64,000 nt of DNA from Deltaproteobacteria bacterium (GCA_019306065.1 JAFDMF010000007.1:1-64000), one strand, 5' to 3'. Shown: positions 14,257 to 61,658, counted from the stretch's first letter. Translations and numbers: made by a program. Notes: a model not told the origin generated them from the letters alone.

Positions 14257-17200
14257 ATGAATACCGATTTATCATTTATTACAAACCAAGAAAACATAAG
14301 CCTTAAAAAAAGGTTTAGGGTTTTAATCAAAGATTCATTATTTTTCGATTCCCTTTCCGCATATTTTTATTCAAGCGGTTTTTACGCCGTATATCCGGCG
14401 CTTAAAAATACAAAAAAAATAAGAATTTTAATCGGCATAGGATCGGATAAAAAAACATTCGATATTATAGAAAAAGGAAATATCGATAAACGCCCTCTTC
14501 TTGATTTTTCTTTTGCGGAAACCAAAACAAAGTTTGAAAACCAAGTTAAAACCGAAATGGCAAACTCTGCAGATAATAAAAAAGTGGAAGAAGGAGTTTA
14601 TAAATTTATAGAATGGATAAAAAGCGGCAAACTACAAATTAAAGCCTATCCGTCCCGCAAACTGCATGCCAAACTATACATTATGACATTTAAAGAAGGG
14701 GACAGAGACGCGGGCAGAATTATTACCGGCTCCAGCAATTTTACCAAAAGCGGATTGAGCGATAATTTGGAATTTAACGTAGAGCTTAAAAACAGAAGCG
14801 ATTATGAATTTGCAAAAAAAAAGTTTGAAGAATTATGGCAAGACGCGGTTGACGTAAGCCAAAAATATATAGACACAATTAACGGCAAAACATGGCTTGC
14901 TAAAAACATTACCCCTTATACGCTATACTTAAAGTTTCTTTACGAATATTTTAAAGAAGACCTTAATTTAAGCGACCAAACTTATATACAATATATGCCT
15001 TTCGGTTTTAAAAAATTTGAATATCAACGGCAGGCAATTTTAAACGCAAAAAAAATAGTTTCGGAATACGGCGGAGTTTTTATCGCAGACGTGGTAGGTT
15101 TGGGAAAAACATATATTGCGACAATGCTATCATCGCAGCTTGCAGGAAGAACCCTTGTTATAGCTCCTCCGGCTCTTTTAAAAAAATCTAACCCCGGCTC
15201 TTGGTCCAACCTATTTTCTGATTTTAACGTTCCGGCAGATTTTGAATCCGCAGGCAAGCTTGATCATATCTTAAAAAGAGGAACAGGTAAATATTCAAAC
15301 ATAATAATAGACGAAGCTCATCGTTTTCGTAACGAATCTACCGCAACCTACGGAAAGCTTGCCGAGATATGCCGCGGCAAAAAAGTAATGTTGGTAACCG
15401 CAACCCCCTTAAACAATACCCCGAAAGACATTTTAAGCCTTATTAAACTGTTTCAAGATTCTAAAAAAAGCGGCATTATGGAGGCTCCGGATCTGGAATT
15501 ATTTTTTGGAAGATTAGAAAAAAAATTAAAAAATTTAGACAGAAAAAAAGATTATGACAAATATATAGACATAGTTAAGCAAAACGCAAAACAAATCCGA
15601 AACAAAGTATTAAAACATTTAATGGTGCGCAGAACAAGAAACGAAATAAAAAAATATTTTGCGGAGGATATAAAAAAACAGGGCTTAAAATTTCCCAAAG
15701 TAGAAAGACCGACACCTCTTTTTTATCAACTTAATAAAAAAGAGGATGAAATATTTAATAAAACCATAAAGCTAATTACGGATGATTTTAAATACGCCCG
15801 TTATATGCCGATGCTTTATTATCAAGGAAAAATAAATCAATTTGAAGCTCAATCGCAAAAAAACTTAGGGCGTTTTATGAAAGTTTTGTTAGTTAAAAGA
15901 TTAGAAAGCAGTTTTTTTGCGTTCCGCAATTCCATAGAAAGATTTATTAATTCTTATGAAATTTTTTTAAAGGAGTTTAAAAACGGCTATATTTATATAA
16001 GCAAAAAAGATACCGCTAAAATATTCGAGGCGTTGCAGCAAGATAATGACGAAGTAATTCAAAAATTAATAGATAAAGGCAGGGCGGAAAAATATGAGGC
16101 AAAAGATTTCAATAAAAAATTAAAAACAGATTTGGAATACGATCTTGCAATATTAAAAAATATAGAAGATCTTTGGCGACAAGTTAAAAGAGATCCGAAG
16201 TTGTTAAAATTTAAGGACGAACTTTTACAAAATAAAATTTTAAAGAAAAACCATATAATAATATTTACAGAATCAAAAGAAACCGCAGATTATCTTTATA
16301 AAAACATAAATAGCGCGGATATAGGCAAACCTCTTAAATTTACCGGAGAATCCGGCGAATCTATCCGCGAAAAAGTTTTGGAAAACTTTGACGCAAACGT
16401 CCGCGAGCAAAAAAACGACTACCGAATACTTATTTCAACCGAAGTTCTATCCGAAGGGGTAAACCTGCATCGCGCAAATACGGTTATAAATTACGATATC
16501 CCTTGGAACCCTACGCGGATGATGCAGCGAGCCGGCAGAATCAACCGAGTAGCCGCTCCGTTTAGCAAAATCTATACATTTAATTTTTTCCCTACGGCTC
16601 AGGCAAACAGCCAAATAGGATTAAAAGAGGCTGCAAAAGTAAAAATAAACGCTTTTTTAACCCTTTTGGGCGGAGACGCGGAACTTTTAACCGAAGGAGA
16701 GCCCATAGCCTCCCATCAGCTTTTTGACAAATTAATTTCAAAAACCGCGGTAGAATCAGAAAATGACGAAGAAAGCGAATTAAAATATCTGCATACAATC
16801 AAAGAAATTCGAGAAAACCAACCGGAATTTTTTGAAAAAATAAAAAAACTTCCGCCAAAAGCCCGCAGCGCAAAAAAAAACAAAGAAATTAAAGACGAGC
16901 TTATAACATATTTTAGATCCGGAAAACTTCAGAAATTTTTTATTGCCAACCCAAAAACAAAAGCAAAAGAGTTAGACTTTATAACCGCCGCAGGCGTCAT
17001 AAAAAGCCGGGCGGACGCAAAAACCGAAAAACTTCCCAAAAGAATATACGGACTGCTTAAAAAAAACAAAAACGCATTTAAAGAATCTACAACTCAGGAA
17101 ACAGACGCTCCGTTTGTTAAAAAAGGAGCGGGCAGCGCGGTAAGAATTATAAAAATTTTAAAAGCAACCCTTAAAATCGGCAAACAACTAACCGACGAGC

Positions 17201-17445
17201 AAACAGATTACCTTAAAAAACTTATAACCCGTCTTAACGAAGGCGGCATACCTAAACAGACCTGTAAAAACTGCCTACAAGAATTAAACAAGCTTAACAA
17301 AAATATTTTAAATCCATTAAAAACTTTGGAGGTTTTGCAAACAACTATACCGGATAAGTTTTTGGAAAAGCATTATACGGATCGAGAAAACGAAACTTCC
17401 GAAAAGCGCGAAATAATATTATCTTTATATTTAAGAGGAGAATAA
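14257..17445 (+). CDS. PLD-like (phospholipase D superfamily) domain + SNF2/DEAD superfamily 2 helicase
   Basis: N-terminal LHAKLYIM...GSSNFTKSG (HxK...GSxN PLD-like), DVVGLGKTYIA Walker A, IIDEAHRF Walker B, VTATPLNN, TEVLSEGVNLHRANTVINYDIPWNPTRMMQRAGRINR. Confidence 0.9.
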   Translation: MNTDLSFITNQENISLKKRFRVLIKDSLFFDSLSAYFYSSGFYAVYPALKNTKKIRILIGIGSDKKTFDIIEKGNIDKRPLLDFSFAETKTKFENQVKTEMANSADNKKVEEGVYKFIEWIKSGKLQIKAYPSRKLHAKLYIMTFKEGDRDAGRIITGSSNFTKSGLSDNLEFNVELKNRSDYEFAKKKFEELWQDAVDVSQKYIDTINGKTWLAKNITPYTLYLKFLYEYFKEDLNLSDQTYIQYMPFGFKKFEYQRQAILNAKKIVSEYGGVFIADVVGLGKTYIATMLSSQLAGRTLVIAPPALLKKSNPGSWSNLFSDFNVPADFESAGKLDHILKRGTGKYSNIIIDEAHRFRNESTATYGKLAEICRGKKVMLVTATPLNNTPKDILSLIKLFQDSKKSGIMEAPDLELFFGRLEKKLKNLDRKKDYDKYIDIVKQNAKQIRNKVLKHLMVRRTRNEIKKYFAEDIKKQGLKFPKVERPTPLFYQLNKKEDEIFNKTIKLITDDFKYARYMPMLYYQGKINQFEAQSQKNLGRFMKVLLVKRLESSFFAFRNSIERFINSYEIFLKEFKNGYIYISKKDTAKIFEALQQDNDEVIQKLIDKGRAEKYEAKDFNKKLKTDLEYDLAILKNIEDLWRQVKRDPKLLKFKDELLQNKILKKNHIIIFTESKETADYLYKNINSADIGKPLKFTGESGESIREKVLENFDANVREQKNDYRILISTEVLSEGVNLHRANTVINYDIPWNPTRMMQRAGRINRVAAPFSKIYTFNFFPTAQANSQIGLKEAAKVKINAFLTLLGGDAELLTEGEPIASHQLFDKLISKTAVESENDEESELKYLHTIKEIRENQPEFFEKIKKLPPKARSAKKNKEIKDELITYFRSGKLQKFFIANPKTKAKELDFITAAGVIKSRADAKTEKLPKRIYGLLKKNKNAFKESTTQETDAPFVKKGAGSAVRIIKILKATLKIGKQLTDEQTDYLKKLITRLNEGGIPKQTCKNCLQELNKLNKNILNPLKTLEVLQTTIPDKFLEKHYTDRENETSEKREIILSLYLRGE

Positions 17446-17448
17446 ACA

Positions 17449-20400
17449 ATGGATAACGCCCAAGCAAAAAACATAATAAAAAAAACCTTTGAAGCGCCTT
17501 TTGATAAAGAGCGCTTTATATATTTTATAAAAAATTTTTTAAACAAAATAGACGAAACAAAGGCTTTTTCCATAAATTCCGAGTATATAAAAGATATGTT
17601 TAAAAGCGTAATTAACAGTTACGAACGCATAGCGACATATACTGCCCCGGACGATCAAAAAATAGACATATTGATAGTTAATCTACAAAAAAATCATTCA
17701 TTGGATCATGCCAGAACAGCCCAAAGAAACTTTGCGGGCAATTATCTTAAAAACAGAGGCGAAAAAGACGCGGGATTATTTGCCTTTGTCCCTCCCGATA
17801 AAAAAGACTGGCGTTTTTCTTTGGTTACAATCGATTATGAATTTAAAGAAACAAAAGCTAAAGAAACATTTACTCCCGCAAAAAGATACTCCTTCTTAGT
17901 AGGAGAAAACGAAGCGAGCCACACCGCCCAAAGCCGTTTGGTAAAAATATTTGCGCAAGACCAATCAAACCCTTCTCTTGCCGACCTTGAAGAAGCCTTT
18001 AACATAGAAAAAGTAACCGAAGAGTTTTTTTTACAATACAGAAAACTCTTTTTACAAGTTAAAGAGGCTCTCGATAAAATTGCCAAACAAAACCCAAACA
18101 TAAAAGCGGAGTTTGATAAAAAAAAGGTAGATACGGTTAATTTTGCAAAAAAACTTTTGGGGCAAATAATATTTTTATACTTCTTGCAAAAAAAAGGCTG
18201 GTTCGGGGTTGAGTTGGGCGAAAAATGGGGAACAGGCTCAAAACGGTTTTTGCGAGATATTTTTGAAAAAAAACATAAAAAAAATTACGACAACTTCTTT
18301 AACGACATATTAGAGCCCCTTTTTTACGAAGCCATTAGAACAGACCGAAGCCATGACGACCATTATTACAAGCTTTTCGACTGCAAAATACCATTTTTAA
18401 ACGGCGGATTATTCGACCCGATTTACGATTACGACTGGGTTAATACAGACATAAACCTCCCCGACTCTCTTTTTTCCAATAAAAACGAAGATAACCAAGG
18501 AAGCGGCATATTAGACATATTCGATCTATACAACTTTACCGTTCAAGAAGATCAGCCATTAGAAAAAGAGGTTGCAATAGATCCGGAACTTCTCGGCAAA
18601 GCTTACGAAAAGTTTAACGCGGTAAGGCGGGATAATTTTGAAGAGTTTAAACAGGCTTTAAAAAGCGGCAAAAAAGGGGACGAAAACAAATTTAATAAAA
18701 AATTCGGAGTATATTACACCCCGCGCGAAATAGTTCATTACATGTGCAGGCAAAGCCTAATAAATTATATTTACGCAGAAGCGAATAAAGCAAAACTTAT
18801 TCCGCCCCTTAAAAAACAGGAAATTAAAATATTAATAGAACAAGGAGAGTTTATATCCGAAAACGAGGTTGTCGCCGCCGAAAAACAGGAAAAAATAAAA
18901 AAAGGAGAACAACAAACATCCTCTTATAATTTCAAGCTCTCCCAATCTGTTAGAGATAACTCCAAAGCAATAGACAAATTACTTCAAAATATAAAAGTAT
19001 GCGACCCTGCAGTTGGCTCCGGGGCTTTTCCTGTAGGAATGATGAATGAAATAGTTGCCGCAAGAAAAGTTTTGGCTTTATCCGTAAAAAAAAAGGCTTT
19101 AAGCGATTACAATTTAAAACGCCAATGTATAGAACGCTCCCTTTACGGCGCGGATATAGACTCCGGCGCCGTAGAAATTGCAAAATTAAGACTATGGCTA
19201 TCTTTAATAGTTGACGAGCAAGATATAAAAAATATTAAGCCTCTGCCAAATTTGGATTATAAAATTGTATGCGGAAACTCTTTGTTAGGATTAAAAAAAG
19301 ACCTTTTAAATTACAAATTATTTGAAGAGATGGAACAATTAAAAGATAAGTTTTTTAACGAAACCAATCCTACTAAAAAAGATGAAGATAAAAATAAAAT
19401 TAATAATCTAATAAAGCAAATAAGCGGCGAAGATAAAGAATTTGATTTTAAGCTGTATTTTTCCGAAGTCTTTCGCGAAAAAAAAGGTTTTGATATAGTT
19501 ATTGCCAACCCGCCGTATGTATCTACAAAAGGAAGAGAAGAAACCGATAAAAAAGCTTTAAAAAAAGTGTATGAGTTCGTAGATGATTTATATAACCATT
19601 TTTATTTTAAAGCCGTAGAAATTGCTAATAACAATAAAGGGATAATTGCCTTTATATCTTCCAAAACATTTTGGACAATTCAAACCAAACATAATCTTCG
19701 CAACTTATTATTAAATAATAGAATAATAGAATTATACGATACTGCCAGCCCCTTTGAAGCAATGGTTGATACCTGCATAGCAATCTTTCAAAAAGATGCC
19801 GCTAAAGATTATACTTTAACAGTAAAAGACGGTAAAAAAAATTTGCTTAATCCTAAAACATATAAGCTTGATGGCAATATTTATAAAAACGCTTCTAACA
19901 ACGTATTTTTTATCCCGGATAATTTTAATATAGCCGTTTATAACAAATATAATTCTTATGTTAAAAAATTAATGAATAAATGGTGGGATAATATAAAAAC
20001 AAGCAGAAAAATAAAACAATGTAAAACGGAATTAGATAAATACAGAAAATTGTTAAAACCCGGAGATATAACTTTGCTTGGGCTTATTACGGAAGGCGGA
20101 CAAGGGCTTGCAACCGCAAATAACGGAAAATATATAGGCGTATTAGATAAAACCAAAGGAGCGGAAAACATAAAAAAAACCCGTCCTCAAAAACTGTTGC
20201 AAGCCGTTCTATCTCAAAACATTGCCGAACTTAATCTTATTAAAACCAAACGGGACGCTCAAGATTATTTGGAAACCCTTAACGAATTTAAGGAGCGCAA
20301 ATTATTTGACAGCCTTAAAGAAAAATACGGAAGAGATATTTTCGGGCAGGGATATTTATACAAGATTGTATCGAAAAATGAAATTGCCGACGTAAACAGC

Positions 20401-21039
20401 CTATCCGATAAAGAAAAGAAAAAAGGAATTTGCGGAAACAAAACCTTTGTTCCTTATGATAAAGGGGATAAATACGGCAACCGATGGTATTTAAAAACCC
20501 CTTATTATATTAATTGGAGCAAAGAAAACGTTAAATATTTATATGATAATTCGGGTAAAAAAGGGATAGGTATGCCTGTAGTTAGAAACCCCGATTATTA
20601 CTTTAGAGAAGGTTTTTGTTGGACAGATGTTAATTCTACCTATCTTAAATCAAGAATTAAAGAAAACGGCGTTTATGATGTTTTGAGTATGAGTTTATTT
20701 TCAATGTTAAATGCCGTTCCGAGTTGGTATATAGTTTCTTTAATAAATTCTCAATTGATTAGTGAATACGTTGATAATTTTATAAACAGCACAAGCCATT
20801 TTCAAATTAATGATGCTCGTCAACTGCCGATAATCATTCCAAACGAAAAACAGCTTCAAAATTTTGAGGTTATCTTTAATCAAGCCTATGAAACAAAGAA
20901 AAAAGAGTTTTCCAAACATATTACAAATAAAGAAGCCGAAAAACTATTAGAAGATATACAGAAAAAAATAGATAAAATGGTTTATAAACTTTACCGGCTT
21001 ACCGAACAGGAGATAAAAATAATAAAACTTGCAAAATAG
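17449..21039 (+). CDS. Eco57I-type N6-adenine DNA methyltransferase (Type IIG/PglX-like large methylase)
   Basis: YYTPREIVHYMC, VCDPAVGSGAFPVGMMNE (motif I), LYGADIDSGAVEIAKLRLWLSL, DIVIANPPYVSTKG (NPPY motif IV); C-terminal TRD-like region. Confidence 0.92.
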   Translation: MDNAQAKNIIKKTFEAPFDKERFIYFIKNFLNKIDETKAFSINSEYIKDMFKSVINSYERIATYTAPDDQKIDILIVNLQKNHSLDHARTAQRNFAGNYLKNRGEKDAGLFAFVPPDKKDWRFSLVTIDYEFKETKAKETFTPAKRYSFLVGENEASHTAQSRLVKIFAQDQSNPSLADLEEAFNIEKVTEEFFLQYRKLFLQVKEALDKIAKQNPNIKAEFDKKKVDTVNFAKKLLGQIIFLYFLQKKGWFGVELGEKWGTGSKRFLRDIFEKKHKKNYDNFFNDILEPLFYEAIRTDRSHDDHYYKLFDCKIPFLNGGLFDPIYDYDWVNTDINLPDSLFSNKNEDNQGSGILDIFDLYNFTVQEDQPLEKEVAIDPELLGKAYEKFNAVRRDNFEEFKQALKSGKKGDENKFNKKFGVYYTPREIVHYMCRQSLINYIYAEANKAKLIPPLKKQEIKILIEQGEFISENEVVAAEKQEKIKKGEQQTSSYNFKLSQSVRDNSKAIDKLLQNIKVCDPAVGSGAFPVGMMNEIVAARKVLALSVKKKALSDYNLKRQCIERSLYGADIDSGAVEIAKLRLWLSLIVDEQDIKNIKPLPNLDYKIVCGNSLLGLKKDLLNYKLFEEMEQLKDKFFNETNPTKKDEDKNKINNLIKQISGEDKEFDFKLYFSEVFREKKGFDIVIANPPYVSTKGREETDKKALKKVYEFVDDLYNHFYFKAVEIANNNKGIIAFISSKTFWTIQTKHNLRNLLLNNRIIELYDTASPFEAMVDTCIAIFQKDAAKDYTLTVKDGKKNLLNPKTYKLDGNIYKNASNNVFFIPDNFNIAVYNKYNSYVKKLMNKWWDNIKTSRKIKQCKTELDKYRKLLKPGDITLLGLITEGGQGLATANNGKYIGVLDKTKGAENIKKTRPQKLLQAVLSQNIAELNLIKTKRDAQDYLETLNEFKERKLFDSLKEKYGRDIFGQGYLYKIVSKNEIADVNSLSDKEKKKGICGNKTFVPYDKGDKYGNRWYLKTPYYINWSKENVKYLYDNSGKKGIGMPVVRNPDYYFREGFCWTDVNSTYLKSRIKENGVYDVLSMSLFSMLNAVPSWYIVSLINSQLISEYVDNFINSTSHFQINDARQLPIIIPNEKQLQNFEVIFNQAYETKKKEFSKHITNKEAEKLLEDIQKKIDKMVYKLYRLTEQEIKIIKLAK

Positions 21040-21276: not shown

Positions 21277-22326
21277 ATGAAAAAAACAGACAAACAAATT
21301 ACAATACAAAATAATAGCGCCGAATTCTTACTTTATACCTCCCCGAATAAAGAGGTAAAAGTAGAAGTTCTTTTGCGCAATCAAACCATATGGTTAAATC
21401 AAAAGCAAATAGCAAAGCTATTCGGGGTAAATGTTCCCGCCATTTCAAAACACTTAAAAAATATTTTTGACGAAGGGGAGCTACAAAGAAAAGCAACTGT
21501 TTCCAAAATGGAAACAGTTCGAAAAGAAGGAAAAAAAGAAGTTTCCAGAAATATGGAGTTTTATAATCTCGATGCCATTCTTTCGGTAGGTTATAGAGTT
21601 AATTCGCGCGAAGCTACAATGTTTAGAATATGGGCGACCAAAACCTTAAAAGAATACATTATAAAAGGTTTTGCAATAGACGACCAAAGACTTAAAAACG
21701 GAGCCTATTTCGGACAAGATTATTTTAAAGAATTACTTGAAACAGTCCGCTCTATCAGAGCAAGCGAAAGAAGAGTCTATCAGCAAATTACCGATATTTT
21801 TGCGGAATGCTCTATAGATTATGATCCGAAATCCGAAATTACCAAAATTTTTTACGCAATGGTGCAAAATAAATTTCATTTTGCCATTGCGGGAAAAACC
21901 GCGGCAGAGATAATTTATGATAATACAGATCAAAACAAACCTTTTATGGGGCTTACAACTTGGAAGAATGCCCCGAAAGGAAGAATTTTAAAACTGGATA
22001 CGGTTATTGCAAAAAATTATCTGAAAGAAGATGAAATTGAAAAGCTTGAAAGAGCCATTTCCGGGTATTTCGATTATATTGAAAGACTTATTGAAAACAG
22101 AATATCCTTTACAATGGAGAAGCTGGCGGAATCGGTTAATAAGTTTTTAGAGTTTAACGAATATAAAATTTTAGACGGAAAAGGAAAGCTTTCTAATAAG
22201 CGGGCAAAACAGAAAGCATCTTTAGAATATGAGGAATTTAATAAAACCCAAAAAATAGAATCAGACTTTGACAAAGAAATAAAAAAAATTTTAAAAGCAA
22301 ATAGCAAAAAAATAACAAAACATTAA
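21277..22326 (+). CDS. rhuM: RhuM-family protein
   Basis: VEVLLRNQTIWLNQKQIAKLFGVNVPAISKHLKNIF, NLDAILSVGYRVNSREATMFRIWATKTLKEYIIKGFAIDDQRL. Confidence 0.9.
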   Translation: MKKTDKQITIQNNSAEFLLYTSPNKEVKVEVLLRNQTIWLNQKQIAKLFGVNVPAISKHLKNIFDEGELQRKATVSKMETVRKEGKKEVSRNMEFYNLDAILSVGYRVNSREATMFRIWATKTLKEYIIKGFAIDDQRLKNGAYFGQDYFKELLETVRSIRASERRVYQQITDIFAECSIDYDPKSEITKIFYAMVQNKFHFAIAGKTAAEIIYDNTDQNKPFMGLTTWKNAPKGRILKLDTVIAKNYLKEDEIEKLERAISGYFDYIERLIENRISFTMEKLAESVNKFLEFNEYKILDGKGKLSNKRAKQKASLEYEEFNKTQKIESDFDKEIKKILKANSKKITKH

Positions 22327-31355: not shown

Positions 31356-33614
31356 ATGAAATCAAAAAACTTTATAGAAAGAGATATAGAAAATTTACTT
31401 GAACAACAACTATTAAAAAATAGTTGGGAGATAAATTTTCGAAATAAAAATAAAAATGTTTATCATCAACAAGCAAGAACAGAAGAAGAGAATAATAAAC
31501 TATTGGGATTAAAACCTGATTTCTGCTTATATATTGATAGAAATTCAAGCTGCCCTGAAATAATTATTGAAACTAAAAAGCCGAATATGAATTTGGCAAA
31601 GACCAAAGCGCAAGCGCTAAATTATGCGAAAATTTTAAATTCAAAAATAATTATCTTATTTGATGGGATTCAGACAAAAAGTTATTGGGTTGATAATGGA
31701 GAAGATTTATTAGAAAATGGACTTAAAGTAAATTCGATCAAAGATAAAAAATTTTACGGCAAATTTTTGTCAATAAATTCAAATCACTATATTGATACTA
31801 ATATTTCTATTAATTCAAAAGAAGAATTAATTGCAGTATTTGCTTTTACGAATCAAAAATTACGAAAAGCAGGCATTACAAAAGGAATGGAAAGATTTTT
31901 TGAATTTTCAAATCTTTTATTTCTGAAATTAATATCTGAAAAAAATGATATTGTATCCGAATCTATTCCGGAATATATTAAGTGGGAGAGTTACAAAAAC
32001 AAAGTAGGCGACGAATTATTAAGCTATATAAATAATACCGTGATACCCGCTTTAGAAAAAATATTCAATAGACAGAATGAAGAAACATTATTTTCAAAAT
32101 TAATAATTCAAGATGCCGTTGCTTTAAAACAAATCATAGATAAATTAGATAAACTAAATTTAAATGGTATAAAAACAGATATTAAGGGCGACGCTTTTGA
32201 ATATTTTATCCAAAAATATAATACGTCAAATAATGATTTAGGCGAATATTTTACGCCAAGACACATCGTAAATTTTTTAGTCCAACTTGCAGCCCCCAAA
32301 TATAGCGAAAAAATATATGATCCGTTTTGTGGTACGGGAGGCATATTAATATCTACCTTTAATTATGTTAAAGATATGTTAAAAGAAAATGGTTATCTCA
32401 CGGATTCGGTTTTAAAAGATTTAAAAGAAAATACGGTTTTTGGCAGTGAAATATCATCAAATGCAAGAATTGCAAAAATGAATATGATTTTAACCGGCGA
32501 TGGTCATAGTAATATCAATCAGAAAGATACTTTACTAAACCCGATTAAAGAGGAATTTGATATTGTTATCACAAATATACCTTTCAATTTAGAAGGCACT
32601 GCCCGAGATTTATATTCGCTTTTAAGTGATAACGGCAACTCGCAATCACTACAACATATTATAAATTCTTTAAATAAAAAAATAACATCAAGAGCTTATG
32701 TCATTGTTCCTGAAGCCGTACTTAATAATAAAGAATTAAAAAATTTTAGAAAATATCTAATAGACAACAGCTTATTAAAGCAAATTATATCTTTACCGGC
32801 AGGAATATTTTTACCATATACCGAAGCAAAATCTTCAATATTAATCTTGCAAGGCTTCAATAATAAAAAAATAGATGCTATTAAGTATGCAAGAATTAAA
32901 AATGACGGTTTTACTTTAACCCAAAGAAGAAGAAAAATAACTAATAAAGTAAACGATTTAGAAGAATATCTTTTTGATAATTCTTATGCTACTTATGAAA
33001 TTAAAACTCATAAAATAATTAATGACACTAATTATTCTTTTATATGGTTTAAATATTTTAATGAAATACCTGAAAACCACATTTTATTAAAACAAATATT
33101 AAAAGAGGAAAGAATTAAAAACATTAATTCATATGAAACAGTTACAGTTACTAAACATAATTTTTATGGGATAATAAGCGGAGAGGAGTATTGGGGCGAT
33201 TCATTTATATCGGTAACATCTGAAACGAATGAAGATTACAAAGTTTTGAACAAAAAATCAATAGCATATAACCCATCTCGAGCAAATACAGGGTCAATAG
33301 GTATTAATTTAACAAAAAAGAATGTGGCTGTTAGTAAAATGTATGTTACATTTAAAGTAGCAGACAAAAATTTTTTACCCGAATATGTATTTTTATGTTT
33401 AAAAAGTCAAGAAGGTATTCAAAATATTAAAGATAGATCTTTTGGATCTGTTAGACAATCTATAAGATTTGATGATTTATGTACTATTGCTATTCCAAAC
33501 ATATCTAAAATTGAACAAACAAAGCTTGTAAATATAGCAAATAAAAAATATCAAGACTACATAAAATACAAACAAGAATTGAGCCTGTTCGATATAAAAA
33601 AAAATATTTTATAA
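31356..33614 (+). CDS. Single-chain Type I-derived R-M enzyme: HsdR_N-like nuclease + HsdM-like N6 methylase + one HsdS-like specificity domain
   Basis: N-term KPDFCLYI...EIIIETKKP (PD-ExK-like), GEYFTPRHIVNFLVQL, YDPFCGTGGILISTF, FDIVITNIPFN, C-terminal specificity-like region. Confidence 0.85.
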   Translation: MKSKNFIERDIENLLEQQLLKNSWEINFRNKNKNVYHQQARTEEENNKLLGLKPDFCLYIDRNSSCPEIIIETKKPNMNLAKTKAQALNYAKILNSKIIILFDGIQTKSYWVDNGEDLLENGLKVNSIKDKKFYGKFLSINSNHYIDTNISINSKEELIAVFAFTNQKLRKAGITKGMERFFEFSNLLFLKLISEKNDIVSESIPEYIKWESYKNKVGDELLSYINNTVIPALEKIFNRQNEETLFSKLIIQDAVALKQIIDKLDKLNLNGIKTDIKGDAFEYFIQKYNTSNNDLGEYFTPRHIVNFLVQLAAPKYSEKIYDPFCGTGGILISTFNYVKDMLKENGYLTDSVLKDLKENTVFGSEISSNARIAKMNMILTGDGHSNINQKDTLLNPIKEEFDIVITNIPFNLEGTARDLYSLLSDNGNSQSLQHIINSLNKKITSRAYVIVPEAVLNNKELKNFRKYLIDNSLLKQIISLPAGIFLPYTEAKSSILILQGFNNKKIDAIKYARIKNDGFTLTQRRRKITNKVNDLEEYLFDNSYATYEIKTHKIINDTNYSFIWFKYFNEIPENHILLKQILKEERIKNINSYETVTVTKHNFYGIISGEEYWGDSFISVTSETNEDYKVLNKKSIAYNPSRANTGSIGINLTKKNVAVSKMYVTFKVADKNFLPEYVFLCLKSQEGIQNIKDRSFGSVRQSIRFDDLCTIAIPNISKIEQTKLVNIANKKYQDYIKYKQELSLFDIKKNIL

Positions 33615-54517: not shown

Positions 54518-54848
54518 AATTTTTTTGTGTTAACCGAAACTATTTTTCAAACTTTTGTTCGGTTTTTTTAATTTAGAATAATATTTTTTTAAAAAACTTA
54601 TCGCGCAGATTATTAATTATTTCGTCCGTTATTAACTCCGTTTTTTATAGGCGTTTATTTGCGCAAAAAATATCATTTGCAAGCTTTAATTACAATAAAT
54701 AATTTAACGGGCAAAAGGAAAGAGGAAACAAGAGATTTTTCCGTTTTAAAATCTATGCTTGTTTATTTGTTATTATATTAATAATAAGCCTAAAAAGAGC
54801 GGAAGAGATAACAGGCTATTATTATCTGATATATTAAGAGGAATTATA

Positions 54849-57839
54849 ATGGAACAAAAATATAAAAAGTGGCTAACTTATTGGAAGAAGAGTTTATCCG
54901 ATTCATTAAAAGTTGATTTGGATATTGAGAAACTACGGCATTTTGAAATTGAAAATTTTAAAATGGAAACGCAAAATATATCCGAGCTTGAAAAAGTAAA
55001 TAGATTAATTGAGATTGAAGAAAGCCGAATAAATAAAAAAAGAGGAATTACATATAAAAAAAGCGAACATTGGTTGCGGATTAATGAAATTGAAATATTT
55101 ATCTCGCCAATAAAGATTAAACCGCTGCCGGAGAACTTAGTTTATTTAAAAGATAAAGAGCCGAAGTTTCCTTTTTGGTTTTCCGCTCGAATAGATAGAA
55201 AAGGGAAACTGAAAGCGCCCGAAGAAATATTTCCTTTGTTTCAAAGAAAATATTTGGAACCTTTGGCGGACGAAAAAACGGAATTTATTTTCGCAATGGC
55301 GGAAAATATAGACAAAGCCGCTACAATCGGTAAAGAAACGTATGAAGACTACTTAGATTATATAAACTATGTAAAAAATGTTTTTAATAAAGCGGTTAAT
55401 CAAGAGATCGAAAGCTATAAATACAAGGGATATGAAACGATTGAAAACGGGATTATATTATTGCCAAACGAAGAGATAAATGCGGGCGTTAGCATAATTA
55501 AACTTTATGAAAAAATTTTAAAAAAAAAGAGCCTGCCCGAATTATTAAAGACATTTATAACCCTTGATAACCGCAAACCGAACCCTCCGCTTGCGGTTTC
55601 CGATTTTATTAACGTTAATCCGTTGCACTTAGGGCAAATGGGAGATGAGTTTCCGCTTTCAATATCTCAACGAAAAAGCCTTTATACCTATTTACAGTCT
55701 AATGACAAAGTATTTGCCGTTAACGGTCCGCCCGGAACCGGAAAAACCACATTATTACAAAGTATTGTTGCAAATAAATTTGTAGAAAGCGCAATCAAAG
55801 GCGATAAGGCGCCTATAATCCTTGCTTGTTCAACCAATAATCAAGCAGTTACAAATATTATCGACAGTTTTTTAAAATCTAATACAAAAGAGGGAAAGCT
55901 TATGGGTAGATGGCTGCCTAAAGTCAGCGGTTACGCTACTTATTTGCCCGCAAGCGGAAAATTGGAAGCCGCGTTAAAAGGAATTAATTATAAAAAGCTG
56001 GATGGAGGCGGATTATTCGATAAAGTTGAAAACAGTTTATATCTGAATAAGGCAAAAGAATTTTTTATTGAGCAATGTTCAAATTATTTGGGAATACAAG
56101 TTTCTAATATTGCCGACGGAATCAAGAGACTTCAAAAAGAAATAGTTGAAGTTCAATCAATTTTCAAAGAAGCTCCTTTAATATGGAATCAATATTTAAA
56201 TGCCGAAAAATTATTTTTTACCGATTATGCTAATAAAGAATTAAAAGTTAAGCGATACTATTTTAAAAATTTTTTAAATGAGGATGCTTTTAGTATAGAT
56301 ATTTCTAAGTTAAAGATTTTGGAAGATAAAATCATATCATATTTTAAAAACGAGCCGTTATTTAGAAAACTGTTCTGTTTTTTCGGCTTTAAATCTTCAT
56401 TAAAAACCAGAGCCTCCGAAATTAGAATATTATTAAGAGATTCTTTAATAAAAGAAACAAACGGATTTGTTTTTATGCAGTATGCAATACTTGAAAAGAT
56501 TGATTCCAAAATAAAAACGGCAAAAAACATATTGGAAGCAATTGTAAAATGGAAAGAATGGAAAATAGACAATTCAATTATCGGAAATCCGCATAGAACC
56601 AAAAAGGAGTATCGGGATTTTGAGCAGTTAAAAATAAAAAATAATTCCGAACCGAATTGCTTTTACGAAGAATTGGACGTTTCGCTTCGCCATAAAGCAT
56701 TTCAACTTGCAACACACTTTTGGGAAGGAAAATATTTGTTAAAGCTTGAAGCCGATTTGCAAGTTGATAATTGCGATCCCCAAAAACAAGGAGAAGATAC
56801 GGTAAAAAATAGATGGCAAAGACAAGCAATGCTTACGCCTTGTTTTGTAGGCACTTTTTATATGGCGCCGAGGTTCTTTAGTTCCTTTAAGTTTTTACAG
56901 ACAGGAGAAGACGGAAGAAATATTTTTGACAATCCTCCTTTGTTTGATTTTATTGACTTGTTAATTGTAGATGAAGCCGGACAAGTTTCGCCGGAAATAG
57001 GAGTCGCTACTTTTTCGCTTGCCAAACAAGCCATAGTTGTAGGAGACGTAAAACAGATAGAGCCTGTTTGGAACATTACAAACAAAATAGATATAGGCAA
57101 CCTTAGAAAGCGCGAACTAATTAAAGATTATAAGGATTTAATTTATGAGAAATCGTTTGACCCGAAAGGATTTCTCGCTTCTACCGGAAGCATAATGCAA
57201 ATGGCGCAAAACGCTTCTAATTTTAAAGAAAACGGAATAATCGAAAAAGGGCTGCTACTCGTTGAACATAGACGTTGTTTTAATGAAATAATAAATTATT
57301 GTAATGTATTGGCTTATAATAAACAGTTAATACCGCTAAGAGGAAAAGCGCCGAAGAATCTACTTTTTCCGCCTATGTACTGCATTCATGTTCAAGGAAA
57401 TTCTACCGTTTCAAATACAAGCCGATACAATTTAAACGAGGTTAAAGCAATAGCAGCTTGGTTATTAAACAATAAAAAGGCAATAGAGACAAAATACGGG
57501 AAACTTGAGGATGCCGTCGGGATAATTACCCCTTTTGTAGGTCAAAAAAACAGCCTGATATATGCTTTGAAAAAAGCCGGCTTTGACGTTTATATATTAA
57601 AGTTAGGAACAGTTCACGCCCTGCAAGGAGCGGAAAGACCGATCATATTATTTTCGGCGGTTTATGGCAAAGGAGATTCCGGCGTTATGTTTTTTGACAG
57701 AGATAACAAACCGAACATGCTAAATGTTGCGGTTTCAAGAGCCAAAGATAATTTTATTATATTTGCAAATACCGAAATATTAGATAAAAACGCAAGTACC
57801 CCTTCCGGTATTTTGGCAAAACATTTAACATATAAATAA
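54849..57839 (+). CDS. Superfamily 1 DNA2/NAM7-like helicase
   Basis: NGPPGTGKTTLLQSIVANK (Walker A), DLLIVDEAGQVSPEIG, VVGDVKQIEPVWN, LVEHRRCFNEIINYCN, LNVAVSRAKDNFIIFA; start MEQKYKKW with AGGA RBS. Confidence 0.9.
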   Translation: MEQKYKKWLTYWKKSLSDSLKVDLDIEKLRHFEIENFKMETQNISELEKVNRLIEIEESRINKKRGITYKKSEHWLRINEIEIFISPIKIKPLPENLVYLKDKEPKFPFWFSARIDRKGKLKAPEEIFPLFQRKYLEPLADEKTEFIFAMAENIDKAATIGKETYEDYLDYINYVKNVFNKAVNQEIESYKYKGYETIENGIILLPNEEINAGVSIIKLYEKILKKKSLPELLKTFITLDNRKPNPPLAVSDFINVNPLHLGQMGDEFPLSISQRKSLYTYLQSNDKVFAVNGPPGTGKTTLLQSIVANKFVESAIKGDKAPIILACSTNNQAVTNIIDSFLKSNTKEGKLMGRWLPKVSGYATYLPASGKLEAALKGINYKKLDGGGLFDKVENSLYLNKAKEFFIEQCSNYLGIQVSNIADGIKRLQKEIVEVQSIFKEAPLIWNQYLNAEKLFFTDYANKELKVKRYYFKNFLNEDAFSIDISKLKILEDKIISYFKNEPLFRKLFCFFGFKSSLKTRASEIRILLRDSLIKETNGFVFMQYAILEKIDSKIKTAKNILEAIVKWKEWKIDNSIIGNPHRTKKEYRDFEQLKIKNNSEPNCFYEELDVSLRHKAFQLATHFWEGKYLLKLEADLQVDNCDPQKQGEDTVKNRWQRQAMLTPCFVGTFYMAPRFFSSFKFLQTGEDGRNIFDNPPLFDFIDLLIVDEAGQVSPEIGVATFSLAKQAIVVGDVKQIEPVWNITNKIDIGNLRKRELIKDYKDLIYEKSFDPKGFLASTGSIMQMAQNASNFKENGIIEKGLLLVEHRRCFNEIINYCNVLAYNKQLIPLRGKAPKNLLFPPMYCIHVQGNSTVSNTSRYNLNEVKAIAAWLLNNKKAIETKYGKLEDAVGIITPFVGQKNSLIYALKKAGFDVYILKLGTVHALQGAERPIILFSAVYGKGDSGVMFFDRDNKPNMLNVAVSRAKDNFIIFANTEILDKNASTPSGILAKHLTYK

Positions 57840-57899
57840 AAAGTTTGATAATTATTGTCCGTCCTTTTATCTGGCGGAATAAGAATACTTAAATAAAAA

Positions 57900-60800
57900 A
57901 TGAAAATAAAAAAAGTAAAACCGAGAAAGGCGCTTAACAAAGCCTTTTTAAAAGTAAAACCAAGCAGGATTGAAATTGAAAGTTTCAAAGCCAATCTTAT
58001 CCGGTTAATAGACAGAATAAACGAAGCGGAAACAGAAGAGTTTCATAAAAACCTCATTTCGGATTTTTTAAAAGACGCCTACTACAAACAAAACCATTTT
58101 ATAAACGCCAAAGGACGAAACGATCTTGTAATTTGTAACGGAAACAAGCCGGATAGTTCGGTCGGCGTAATTTTTGAAGTAAAAAATCCCGCCAATAAAA
58201 GCGAAATGATTACAACCGAAAAGCTATGCGCAAAGGCTTTTTACGAATTAACGCTTTATTATTTACGAGAGCGGATTACTTATAACAATATTGAAATAAA
58301 ACATTTAATTATTACAAACATCAACGAATGGTTCATTTTTGACGCTGCGCTGTTTGAACGCCTGTTTGCTCAAAACAAAAATTTTGTAAAACAATTTAAA
58401 GAGTTTGAGGGCGGACGTTTGACGGACATTACAACCGATTTTTTTTACAAACAAATTGCGGCGACGTTTATTAGAAACATTGAAACAGAAATTGAATTTG
58501 CCTACTTTAATCTTATGCAATATCAAAAGCCGCTTCGCAATACAGACAAAGCGGACGATAACAAGCTAATTGCATTGTTTAAACTACTTTCGCCGGAACA
58601 CCTTTTAAAACTTCCGTTTGCAAACGACAGCAACAGCCTCGATAAAAGCTTCTATGCAGAGTTATTACATATTATAGGTTTGGCGGAAACCAAAAAAAAA
58701 GGGAAAAAACTGATTGAAAGAAACAAAAAAGGCAAAAGAAATTCGGCAACCATTTTAGAAAGCGCCATAATGCAGCTTGACAGCTTAGATAAAATAAGCC
58801 GATTAGATTATCCAAACCAATTTGGCGACGCACAACAAGAGCGCTTATTTAATATAGGGCTTGAATTAAGCATTACTTGGATAAACAGAATCTTATTTTT
58901 AAAATTATTAGAAGCCCAGCTTATCGCTTATCATAAAGGGGACAAATCTTACGCGTTTCTTAACTTAAACAAAATAAAAAATTATGACGACCTCAACAGT
59001 TTGTTTTTTGAAGTATTGGCAAAAAAGAATGACCAAAGAAACCAAGACGTAAAAACAGCGTTTGAAAAAATACCCTATTTAAACAGTTCCCTTTTCGAAC
59101 CGACGGAACTTGAGCAGGCAACCTTATTTATAAGCAACCTAAAAGATGATAAAACAATTCCGATCATTTCAACAACCGTTTTAAAAGATAATAAAGGCAA
59201 AAAGCGAGCGGGCGGTTTATTAACTTTAGAATACTTATTTAAGTTCTTAGACGCTTACGACTTTGCAAGCGAAGGTTCCGAAGCAATTGACGAAGATAAC
59301 AAAACCCTTATAAACGCTTCGGTTCTTGGTTTGATATTTGAAAAAATAAACGGTTACAAAGACGGTTCCTTTTTTACTCCCGGTTTTATCACAATGTATA
59401 TGTGCCGCGAAACCGTTCGGAAAACCGTAATACAAAAATTTAACCAAACAAAAAAATGGAATTGCAAAAACCTCAATCAACTTTACAATAAAATTAAAGA
59501 CATCAAAGAAGCAAACAACATTATAAACGACATAAAAATATGCGACCCCGCCGTAGGCTCCGGACACTTTTTGGTTTCTGCTCTAAACGAAATAATTGCC
59601 GTAAAAAACGACTTAAACATTTTGCAAGACAGCGCGGGCAGGCGGCTTAAAGAGTATAATGTAGAAGTAGTAAATGACGAATTAATTATAACCGATGAAG
59701 ACGGAGAATTATTTGAGTATAACTATAAAAACAAAGAGAGCCAACGCATACAAGAAACCCTTTTTTATGAAAAGAAAACCATAATTGAAAACTGCCTTTT
59801 TGGAGCGGACATCAATCCCAATTCCGTAAAAATATGCCGTTTGCGTTTATGGATAGAACTATTAAAAAACGCTTACTACAAAAACGACGACGAGTTAGAA
59901 ACCCTGCCCAACATCGATATCAACATAAAATGCGGAAACTCATTAGTAAGCCGTTTTGCCATCGATACCGATTTAAGCAGAGCATTAAGAAAAAGCAAAT
60001 GGAATATTGAGACTTACAAAATAGCGGTTGCCGCTTACCGTAATGCAGACAATAAAGAGCAAAAGCGAGAGAAGGAAAAGCTGATTAATGAAATTAAAGA
60101 AGATTTTAGAGCGGAAATTTCATCAAACGACCCGAAAGTAAAAAGATTGAAAAAACTTAACGGCGATTTGCTTCTTGAAATGAGCAGAGGGAAACTTTTT
60201 GAAATGAGCAAAGAGGATGAAGAGGATTTTAACGAAAGAGTCGCGAAAATTACCGAAAAAAAAGAAAGGTTAAAAGCCGAAATTGAGGCGATAAGATCTA
60301 ATAAAATTTTTGATAACGCTTTTGAGTGGCGTTTTGAGTTTCCGGAAGTTTTAAATGATAACGGAGATTTTATAGGCTTTGATATAGTTATCGGCAACCC
60401 GCCGTATATCAGAGTTCAGGAATTGGAATGTCAATTAATAGATTATTATAAGGCTAATTTTCAAGTTGCTTTAAAACGAATTGATATTTCAATAATATTC
60501 ATAGAACTTTCCAAAAAACTTTTAAAAGAAAAGGGGTTTGCAACCTATATTACCTCAAATCAATTTCTTACGACTGAATATGGTTTTGCAATTCGAAAGT
60601 TCTTGAAAGAAGATTATAGGGTTTTTAAAATAATTAATTTTGGTGATTTGCCAGTATTTGAAGAAGCATTAACCTATGTAAGTATATTTCAGTTTCAAAA
60701 GGACAAACCTGATGACTTGGAGTATTACAAGGTTAATAAACTAGAAGAAGCTAAGATATTTAATTATCAAACAGAATTAATTGACTTCAAAAAACTTACT

Positions 60801-61658
60801 ACAGATAATTGGATTTTATCCTCAAACCAGAATATAAGACTAATTGATAAACTTAAGGGGTTTTCAACTTTAAAAGAATTCGGTAAATCTTGGGCGGGTC
60901 TTATTACTGGAATGGATAAATATCTAATGTTTGATAAAAAAGATATTGAAAAATACGGATTTGAAAATGAAGTTATTCTACCAGTTATTAGGGCAAATGA
61001 CTGTTCTAAATACTATTGTAATGCACCAACAAAACACGTAATTTATCCTTATAAATTTGAAAACGGAAAAACCATTTTATTAAAAGAAAAAGAATTGCGA
61101 ATAAAGTATCCAATTGCATATAAATATTTGGTTAGAAATAAAAGTGAACTTCTGAAAAGAAAAGATAGCCGAAAGTTGTTCGCAGATAAAGAAGGATGGT
61201 TTTCACTTACTAGATTTGGACAAAAAAGTATTTATAATCAGTTGAAAATTGTATCGCCAGGGGAAGTAAAGGATCATAAGTTTTGTATTGACAGATCGGG
61301 AGCAGGCTTTAGTTGTGCAAGAGTTTTTGCAATTACAATTAGTAATGATGAATTGAACATAAATTTTGTTTTAGCAATTTTAAATTCATTAGTTACTAAA
61401 TTTTTTATTCAAAGTAGAGCATCTCTTAAAGCAGGAGGTTATTATTCATATTCATCTAATGTTCTAAATCAAGTGCCAATCAAGAAGATTTCAACTAAAG
61501 AGCAGCAGCTATTTATTGACTTGGTTCAAAAAATTGATGAACAAAAAAAACTCGGCAAAGATTGCACAGTATTAGAAGACCAAATAGACCAACTCGTTTA
61601 CAAACTTTACAATCTTACGGAAGAGGAAATAAAAATTATAGAAAACAGCGTTAAATAA
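57900..61658 (+). CDS. Type IIG-like restriction-modification protein (Eco57I-type N6 methylase with N-terminal nuclease-like domain)
   Basis: N-term GRNDLVICNG...GVIFEVKNP (D-ExK-like), GSFFTPGFITMYMC, ICDPAVGSGHFLVSALNE, LFGADINPNSVKICRLRLWIELL, DIVIGNPPYIRVQE, C-terminal TRD-like region. Confidence 0.92.
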   Translation: MKIKKVKPRKALNKAFLKVKPSRIEIESFKANLIRLIDRINEAETEEFHKNLISDFLKDAYYKQNHFINAKGRNDLVICNGNKPDSSVGVIFEVKNPANKSEMITTEKLCAKAFYELTLYYLRERITYNNIEIKHLIITNINEWFIFDAALFERLFAQNKNFVKQFKEFEGGRLTDITTDFFYKQIAATFIRNIETEIEFAYFNLMQYQKPLRNTDKADDNKLIALFKLLSPEHLLKLPFANDSNSLDKSFYAELLHIIGLAETKKKGKKLIERNKKGKRNSATILESAIMQLDSLDKISRLDYPNQFGDAQQERLFNIGLELSITWINRILFLKLLEAQLIAYHKGDKSYAFLNLNKIKNYDDLNSLFFEVLAKKNDQRNQDVKTAFEKIPYLNSSLFEPTELEQATLFISNLKDDKTIPIISTTVLKDNKGKKRAGGLLTLEYLFKFLDAYDFASEGSEAIDEDNKTLINASVLGLIFEKINGYKDGSFFTPGFITMYMCRETVRKTVIQKFNQTKKWNCKNLNQLYNKIKDIKEANNIINDIKICDPAVGSGHFLVSALNEIIAVKNDLNILQDSAGRRLKEYNVEVVNDELIITDEDGELFEYNYKNKESQRIQETLFYEKKTIIENCLFGADINPNSVKICRLRLWIELLKNAYYKNDDELETLPNIDINIKCGNSLVSRFAIDTDLSRALRKSKWNIETYKIAVAAYRNADNKEQKREKEKLINEIKEDFRAEISSNDPKVKRLKKLNGDLLLEMSRGKLFEMSKEDEEDFNERVAKITEKKERLKAEIEAIRSNKIFDNAFEWRFEFPEVLNDNGDFIGFDIVIGNPPYIRVQELECQLIDYYKANFQVALKRIDISIIFIELSKKLLKEKGFATYITSNQFLTTEYGFAIRKFLKEDYRVFKIINFGDLPVFEEALTYVSIFQFQKDKPDDLEYYKVNKLEEAKIFNYQTELIDFKKLTTDNWILSSNQNIRLIDKLKGFSTLKEFGKSWAGLITGMDKYLMFDKKDIEKYGFENEVILPVIRANDCSKYYCNAPTKHVIYPYKFENGKTILLKEKELRIKYPIAYKYLVRNKSELLKRKDSRKLFADKEGWFSLTRFGQKSIYNQLKIVSPGEVKDHKFCIDRSGAGFSCARVFAITISNDELNINFVLAILNSLVTKFFIQSRASLKAGGYYSYSSNVLNQVPIKKISTKEQQLFIDLVQKIDEQKKLGKDCTVLEDQIDQLVYKLYNLTEEEIKIIENSVK

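Follow-up and report, generated by a model that had tools for sequence, protein, structure and literature searches.

We analyzed a 64,000-nt stretch of DNA from a Deltaproteobacteria bacterium (GCA_019306065.1 JAFDMF010000007.1:1-64000), here referred to as the window, whose positions are used as coordinates. Two adjacent genes of this window, here named HEL and MT, quite probably constitute a self-contained ATP-dependent restriction-modification (R-M) system, in which the domain order of the Type ISP enzymes is split over two genes and a PLD domain serves as nuclease. HEL encodes a PLD domain fused to a SNF2-type motor and MT an Eco57I-type adenine methylase. The gene structure, the conserved active-site residues, the strict pairing, the variability of the recognition domain and the co-divergence of HEL and MT were all observed. 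We read the locus as an R-M-like system with the PLD domain as its likely nuclease because the PLD catalytic residues are invariant, the pairing is strict and the C-terminus of the methylase is hypervariable. General features of ATP-dependent R-M were also present, namely a motor-nuclease with intact active sites next to a methylase partner, and a variable target-recognition region set against constant motor and catalytic parts.

HEL matched the Pfam families PLDc_2 (residues 50-194), SNF2-rel, ResIII and Helicase_C. In an alignment of 63 HEL proteins (A3, mean column identity 64%) the PLD residues H137, K139, S159 and N161 were invariant, as were Walker A (DVVGLGKT), DE.H and the residues of motif VI. 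This agrees with a first-pass annotation of the locus, which had seen the likely nuclease in the PLD domain. The AlphaFold model of HEL gave structural matches to RapA and other SNF2 motors as well as to SauUSI (7clg, E 8e-12), a PLD/SF2 ATP-dependent restriction enzyme. In PADLOC, HEL matched the profile C3a139 'HKD+Snf2' with an E value of only 1.6e-49, while a distant sister at locus L032 reached 1e-137. A second PLD-SNF2 helicase, 33-35% identical to HEL, was found on contig C11 of the source genome (6208-9582). It is located near the contig end with no methylase visible, and the other two genomes of the genus also contain it.

MT matched the Pfam family Eco57I (E 4e-31) and the PADLOC profile PDLC03596 'REase_MTase_IIG' (E 2.6e-279). 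Among 50 aligned MT proteins most of the motif DPAVGSGAF was invariant and NPPY was at least 90% conserved. The N-terminal 160 residues carried conserved D73, R89, R93, N94, W121 and R122 (alignment A4), and a conserved D-(D/E)xK set was not found among them. A search of 43 MT N-termini against Pfam at E<=1 gave only scattered chance matches and no PD-(D/E)xK profile, and a profile of the N-terminus gave no credible nuclease match among PDB sequences. A hidden PD-(D/E)xK nuclease in this part of MT was rejected on these searches, in line with the first-pass annotation, which had seen no such domain in the methylase. The predicted N-terminal order of helices, strands, a helix and two strands would allow a degenerate REase-like fold, which we do not claim. 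The MT model matched BrxX/PglX most closely, and matches to CamA and MmeI were found as well.

Both proteins thus match PADLOC, as separate profile entries. The earlier description of a minimal, less characterised R-M-like system holds as far as the two genes and the R-M-like character are concerned, and for the pair the words 'less characterised' are justified. The components, however, are known to databases, since PADLOC has a related HKD+Snf2 profile and files the methylase family as Type IIG. A description of the HEL-MT pair as a named unit was not found in the open-access literature, where only related systems appeared; this absence is weak evidence, as most subscription papers lie outside that literature.

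The pair is not a local curiosity. In a scan of genomes 80 HEL loci were found, mostly with 51-70% identity over nearly the full length. They belonged to Desulfobacterota, Nitrospirota, Chloroflexota, Patescibacteria, Bacteroidota, Planctomycetota, Thermotogota, Omnitrophota, Spirochaetota, archaea and others, in total more than 20 phyla as labelled in the sequence records. An MT gene was located downstream on the same strand in 63 of the 65 HEL loci with usable downstream DNA. The spacing ranged from -80 to +61 nt at 37 of these 63 loci, was 222 nt at one and was longer at the remaining 25. Furthermore, a search for MT in 297 genomes of the same phylum as the window gave a strong match in 19, and those MTs that matched at the N-terminus had HEL upstream, sometimes beyond an inserted stretch. 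Two other genomes of the genus carried the pair as well, with HEL 83-84% identical and the loci partly split by contig ends. Dozens of genomes carry the pair at 50-83% identity, which puts the association far beyond chance. More distant HEL relatives (about 27-30% identity) likewise adjoin Eco57I-type methylases, so the helicase-methylase theme is wider than this clade.

Locus L046 (10192-11735) was an exception to the intact pair. Here, an intact HEL lies beside an MT reduced to its start and its C-terminal part, which looks like an internal deletion. If HEL is tolerated where the methylase no longer works, this would suggest that HEL needs MT for finding its targets. A three-gene relative was seen on the Thermus oshimai plasmid pTHEOS02 (3578-10363): an Eco57I methylase comes first, then a 412-aa protein that has no match in Pfam and is possibly a separate specificity subunit, and last the PLD-SNF2 helicase. 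HEL-MT pairs were also found on two IMG/VR contigs classed as viral (L162 and L163, 34 and 59 kb), which may be mobile elements carrying the pair or misclassified host DNA.

The two ends of MT differed strongly in their conservation. When compared to the window, residues 1-450 of MT were mostly 52-69% identical (range 36-69%) and HEL 51-67%, whereas residues 800-1196 of MT were just 10-21% identical in 45 of 46 homologues. The exception was L060 (Thermoflavifilum thermophilum DSM 14807) with 54%; here HEL is 61% identical and MT about 60% along its length, and 3 nt separate the two genes. Among 45 complete pairs, HEL had a median distance of 0.40 and the recognition region one of 0.80. Even where two HEL proteins were 86-89% identical (11-14% apart), the recognition regions were 76-83% different. 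R-M enzymes change their specificity by swapping of such recognition regions, and judged from the alignments the C-terminal variability of MT is the signature of a swapping target-recognition domain.

Distances of HEL were correlated with those of MT residues 1-160 (r=0.69) and 160-450 (r=0.60), less with the MT core (r=0.35) and least with the recognition region (r=0.14). The observed r was reached by 0, 0, 1 and 25 of 500 permutations, respectively. From this indirect evidence we regard the N-terminus of MT as the likely docking surface for HEL; linkage alone would less simply produce such a gradient.

We infer complex formation, methylation, ATP-driven translocation, cleavage and protection against phage along the following lines. 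The C-terminal region of MT would read a short, probably asymmetric DNA sequence, and MT would methylate one adenine within the recognised site and so protect the host DNA. HEL would dock on MT, probably via the MT N-terminal domain. From unmethylated sites HEL may then be released or driven along the DNA by its SNF2-type motor, by translocation or sliding, after which its PLD nuclease would cut. By analogy to SauUSI and BfiI, in which the PLD active site is built from two copies (PMC7913695), one active site would need two copies of HEL.

Several known enzymes share parts of this layout. In the Type ISP enzymes LlaGI and LlaBIII a nuclease, an ATP-driven motor, a gamma-adenine methylase and a C-terminal recognition domain follow each other (PMC3874165), and HEL-MT has the same order. 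Type ISP enzymes are, however, single polypeptides with an Mrr-like nuclease, whereas HEL-MT is split into two genes after the motor and carries a PLD nuclease and a motor of the SNF2/RapA type. A one-polypeptide fusion of HEL and MT, looked for in passing, was not seen: no open frame exceeded 1524 aa among the listed matches from 96 genomes. Type III R-M systems (Mod/Res) also use two genes, one for a methylase that contains the recognition domain and one for a motor-nuclease; their methylase is of another class than MT and the PD-(D/E)xK nuclease lies at the far end of Res. SauUSI, a Type IV enzyme of Staphylococcus aureus, resembles HEL in joining a PLD nuclease at the N-terminus to an SF2 motor but has its own recognition domain for methylated cytosine and, unlike HEL-MT, no methylase partner (PMC7913695). 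CglI and NgoAVII are ATP-dependent R-M systems which combine, like HEL-MT, a PLD nuclease with an SF2 motor (PMC4267653, PMC7913695). In these two, however, a B3 recognition domain is joined to the PLD domain, the Z1-type motor is a subunit of its own and a third gene encodes the methylase. A further-reaching proposal, about which we are somewhat more doubtful than confident, is that HEL-MT represents an unnamed, separate class of ATP-dependent R-M in more than 20 phyla. This 'split Type ISP' would have a PLD-SNF2 cutter targeted by MT through N-terminal docking, a freely swapped recognition region and a PLD site formed only when two motors meet.

The PADLOC assignment of MT suggests another explanation, in which MT would be a self-sufficient Type IIG restriction-methylase and HEL an accessory or separate helicase-nuclease. 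The structural match to the single-chain enzyme MmeI points the same way. A Type IIG enzyme unites nuclease, methylase and recognition domain in one chain; MT has the methylase and a variable C-terminus, and a nuclease signature was found at its N-terminus neither with Pfam nor with PDB. The same N-terminus co-diverges with HEL, and MT adjoins HEL almost without exception. We consider this explanation unlikely.

It is also quite improbable that the locus is a reduced DISARM or BREX-like system which keeps phage out but is not an R-M enzyme in the classical sense. The first-pass annotation had compared the pair to DISARM compressed into two genes, and DISARM does combine PLD, SNF2 helicase and methylase functions as HEL-MT does. 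Moreover, the best NCBIfam matches were DrmD for HEL (E 4e-42) and BREX PglX for MT (E 1e-39), and the MT model is predicted to be closest in fold to BrxX/PglX. The proposed check against the DISARM and BREX profiles was run and placed both genes far below the family cut-offs, HEL with 144.7 bits (DrmD cut-off 610) and MT with 135.8 bits (PglX cut-off 500). DISARM, in addition, has a separate PLD gene, DrmC, along with DrmA/DrmB, whereas the PLD domain of this locus is fused to the motor and reached 20.7 bits with the DrmC profile (cut-off 133). PF09369 (MZB), the profile tested for the DUF1998 region, had no match in the whole genome (1.97 Mb searched, 93% complete), so that the reported absence of a DUF1998 gene extends beyond the window. 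PglZ gave one sub-threshold match only (20.8 bits, cut-off 25), on another contig (C19), and DUF499 had no match in the genome. On these grounds membership in DISARM and in BREX was rejected, and the idea of a compressed DISARM is not supported; the unit that recurs in dozens of genomes is the two-gene pair itself. Least probable in our view is a BREX-related ('BR', Type-2) system of the DUF499 type which has lost its ATPase and kept effector and methylase. HEL has the fused HKD and Swi2/Snf2 layout of the Type-2 BR effectors, which occur together with an adenine methylase (PMC12839542). However, the methylase of these systems carries DUF1156 and is accompanied by a DUF499 ATPase and DUF3780 (PMC12839542), and DUF1156 was not found in MT by Pfam. 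With no DUF499 match in the genome, BR membership was rejected too, and the two-gene form is a large family of its own rather than a sporadic loss.

Some observations weigh against an ATP-dependent R-M system made of HEL and MT. The HEL gene at locus L090 had no methylase within 7 kb downstream. Simple linkage could account for part of the co-divergence of HEL and MT, although this co-divergence is weaker for the core and the C-terminus of MT. Finally, the AlphaFold predictions are of moderate quality (mean pLDDT 75 for MT and 80 for HEL), and the recognition region of MT is poorly modelled.

The structure of the locus is summarized in Table 1. Both open reading frames are intact and lie on the same strand, with the boundaries and lengths given by the first-pass annotation, and 3 nt separate the HEL stop from the MT start. 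Co-translation had been presumed, and translational coupling is indeed likely because an AGGAG for MT lies inside the end of the HEL gene. Scans for promoters and terminators gave signals not clearly above those of shuffled sequences and were left unused.

Table 1. Positions of the HEL-MT genes, their domains and an accessory gene in the window
Feature	Positions	Strand	Basis
HEL, restriction/motor subunit; PLD nuclease followed by SNF2-type SF2 ATPase, 1062 aa	14257..17445	+	Pfam, PADLOC, alignment A3
PLD (HKD-type) nuclease domain of HEL, residues 50-194	14404..14838	+	Pfam PLDc_2 E 1.6e-10; invariant columns
SNF2/ResIII first RecA lobe of HEL, residues about 254-474; Walker A DVVGLGKT 278-285, DEAH 352-355	15016..15678	+	Pfam; invariant columns
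Helicase_C second RecA lobe of HEL, residues 657-765; motif VI QR.GR.NR	16225..16551	+	Pfam; invariant columns
AGGAG, ribosome-binding-site-like, for MT; inside the HEL 3' end, 8 nt before ATG	17436..17440	+	sequence
MT, modification/specificity subunit; Eco57I-type gamma N6-adenine methyltransferase, 1196 aa	17449..21039	+	Pfam, PADLOC PDLC03596
MT N-terminal domain, residues 1-160; candidate HEL-docking domain	17449..17928	+	alignment A4; HEL co-divergence r=0.69
MT catalytic core, residues about 506-765; DPAVGSGAF 519-527, NPPY 687-690	18964..19743	+	Pfam, MT alignment
MT C-terminal target-recognition region, residues about 800-1150; hypervariable, median 80% different	19846..20898	+	inter-locus comparison
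RhuM-family protein, 349 aa; recurrent accessory gene outside the core pair, 237 nt after MT	21277..22326	+	Pfam PF13310 E 1e-103, PADLOC PDC-S05

A YchF-like gene lies upstream of HEL on the opposite strand, and the RhuM gene, argG, RNase Y and tyrS lie downstream of MT. The pair is therefore placed among housekeeping genes. A RhuM-like gene was also found near the pair at L024, L039 and L043, following it at L024 and L039. At some loci AlbA_2/HATPase regulators, Bro-N, Fic, MNT-HEPN, AbiEii, DUF559 or NYN genes were present between HEL and MT. These accessory genes are partly of kinds reported in R-M neighbourhoods; RhuM and Fic fit an R-M identity, since RhuM and Doc/Fic-type genes have been reported in R-M loci (PMC3710099).

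Elsewhere in the window, at 54759-61658, a helicase and a methylase are again neighbours: a 1026-aa SF1 helicase (PADLOC MkoC, 3.5e-287) is followed by a Type IIG-like enzyme of 1252 aa, which contains DUF7149, DUF7814 and TaqI_C domains. We rejected the two as kin of HEL-MT, as this helicase has no relationship to HEL and its neighbour is a different IIG-type enzyme. Additionally, 31356-33614 encodes a type I-like N6 methylase of 752 aa, in which a stretch at the C-terminus matches specificity subunits of type I. In the whole genome (2 Mb) there were 15 Eco57I-domain matches, 14 of them above the cut-off; either the genome is rich in R-M genes or the profile is partly loose.

New in this analysis are the pairing, its breadth and the swapping of the recognition region; the individual parts were already in PADLOC. 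Defence surveys may miscount both halves, since in profile libraries one is filed under 'Type IIG' and the other is a helicase entry of its own. As judged from sequence comparison, the pair is probably a widespread variant of ATP-dependent R-M, which is spread over much of the bacterial tree and reaches into the archaea. If our interpretation is correct, it would be among the simplest ATP-dependent DNA immune systems, with two genes and one recognition domain, and would provide a mechanistic link between Type ISP, Type III, SauUSI and the BREX-related enzymes. The many natural swaps of its recognition domain offer material for studying the evolution of sequence specificity.

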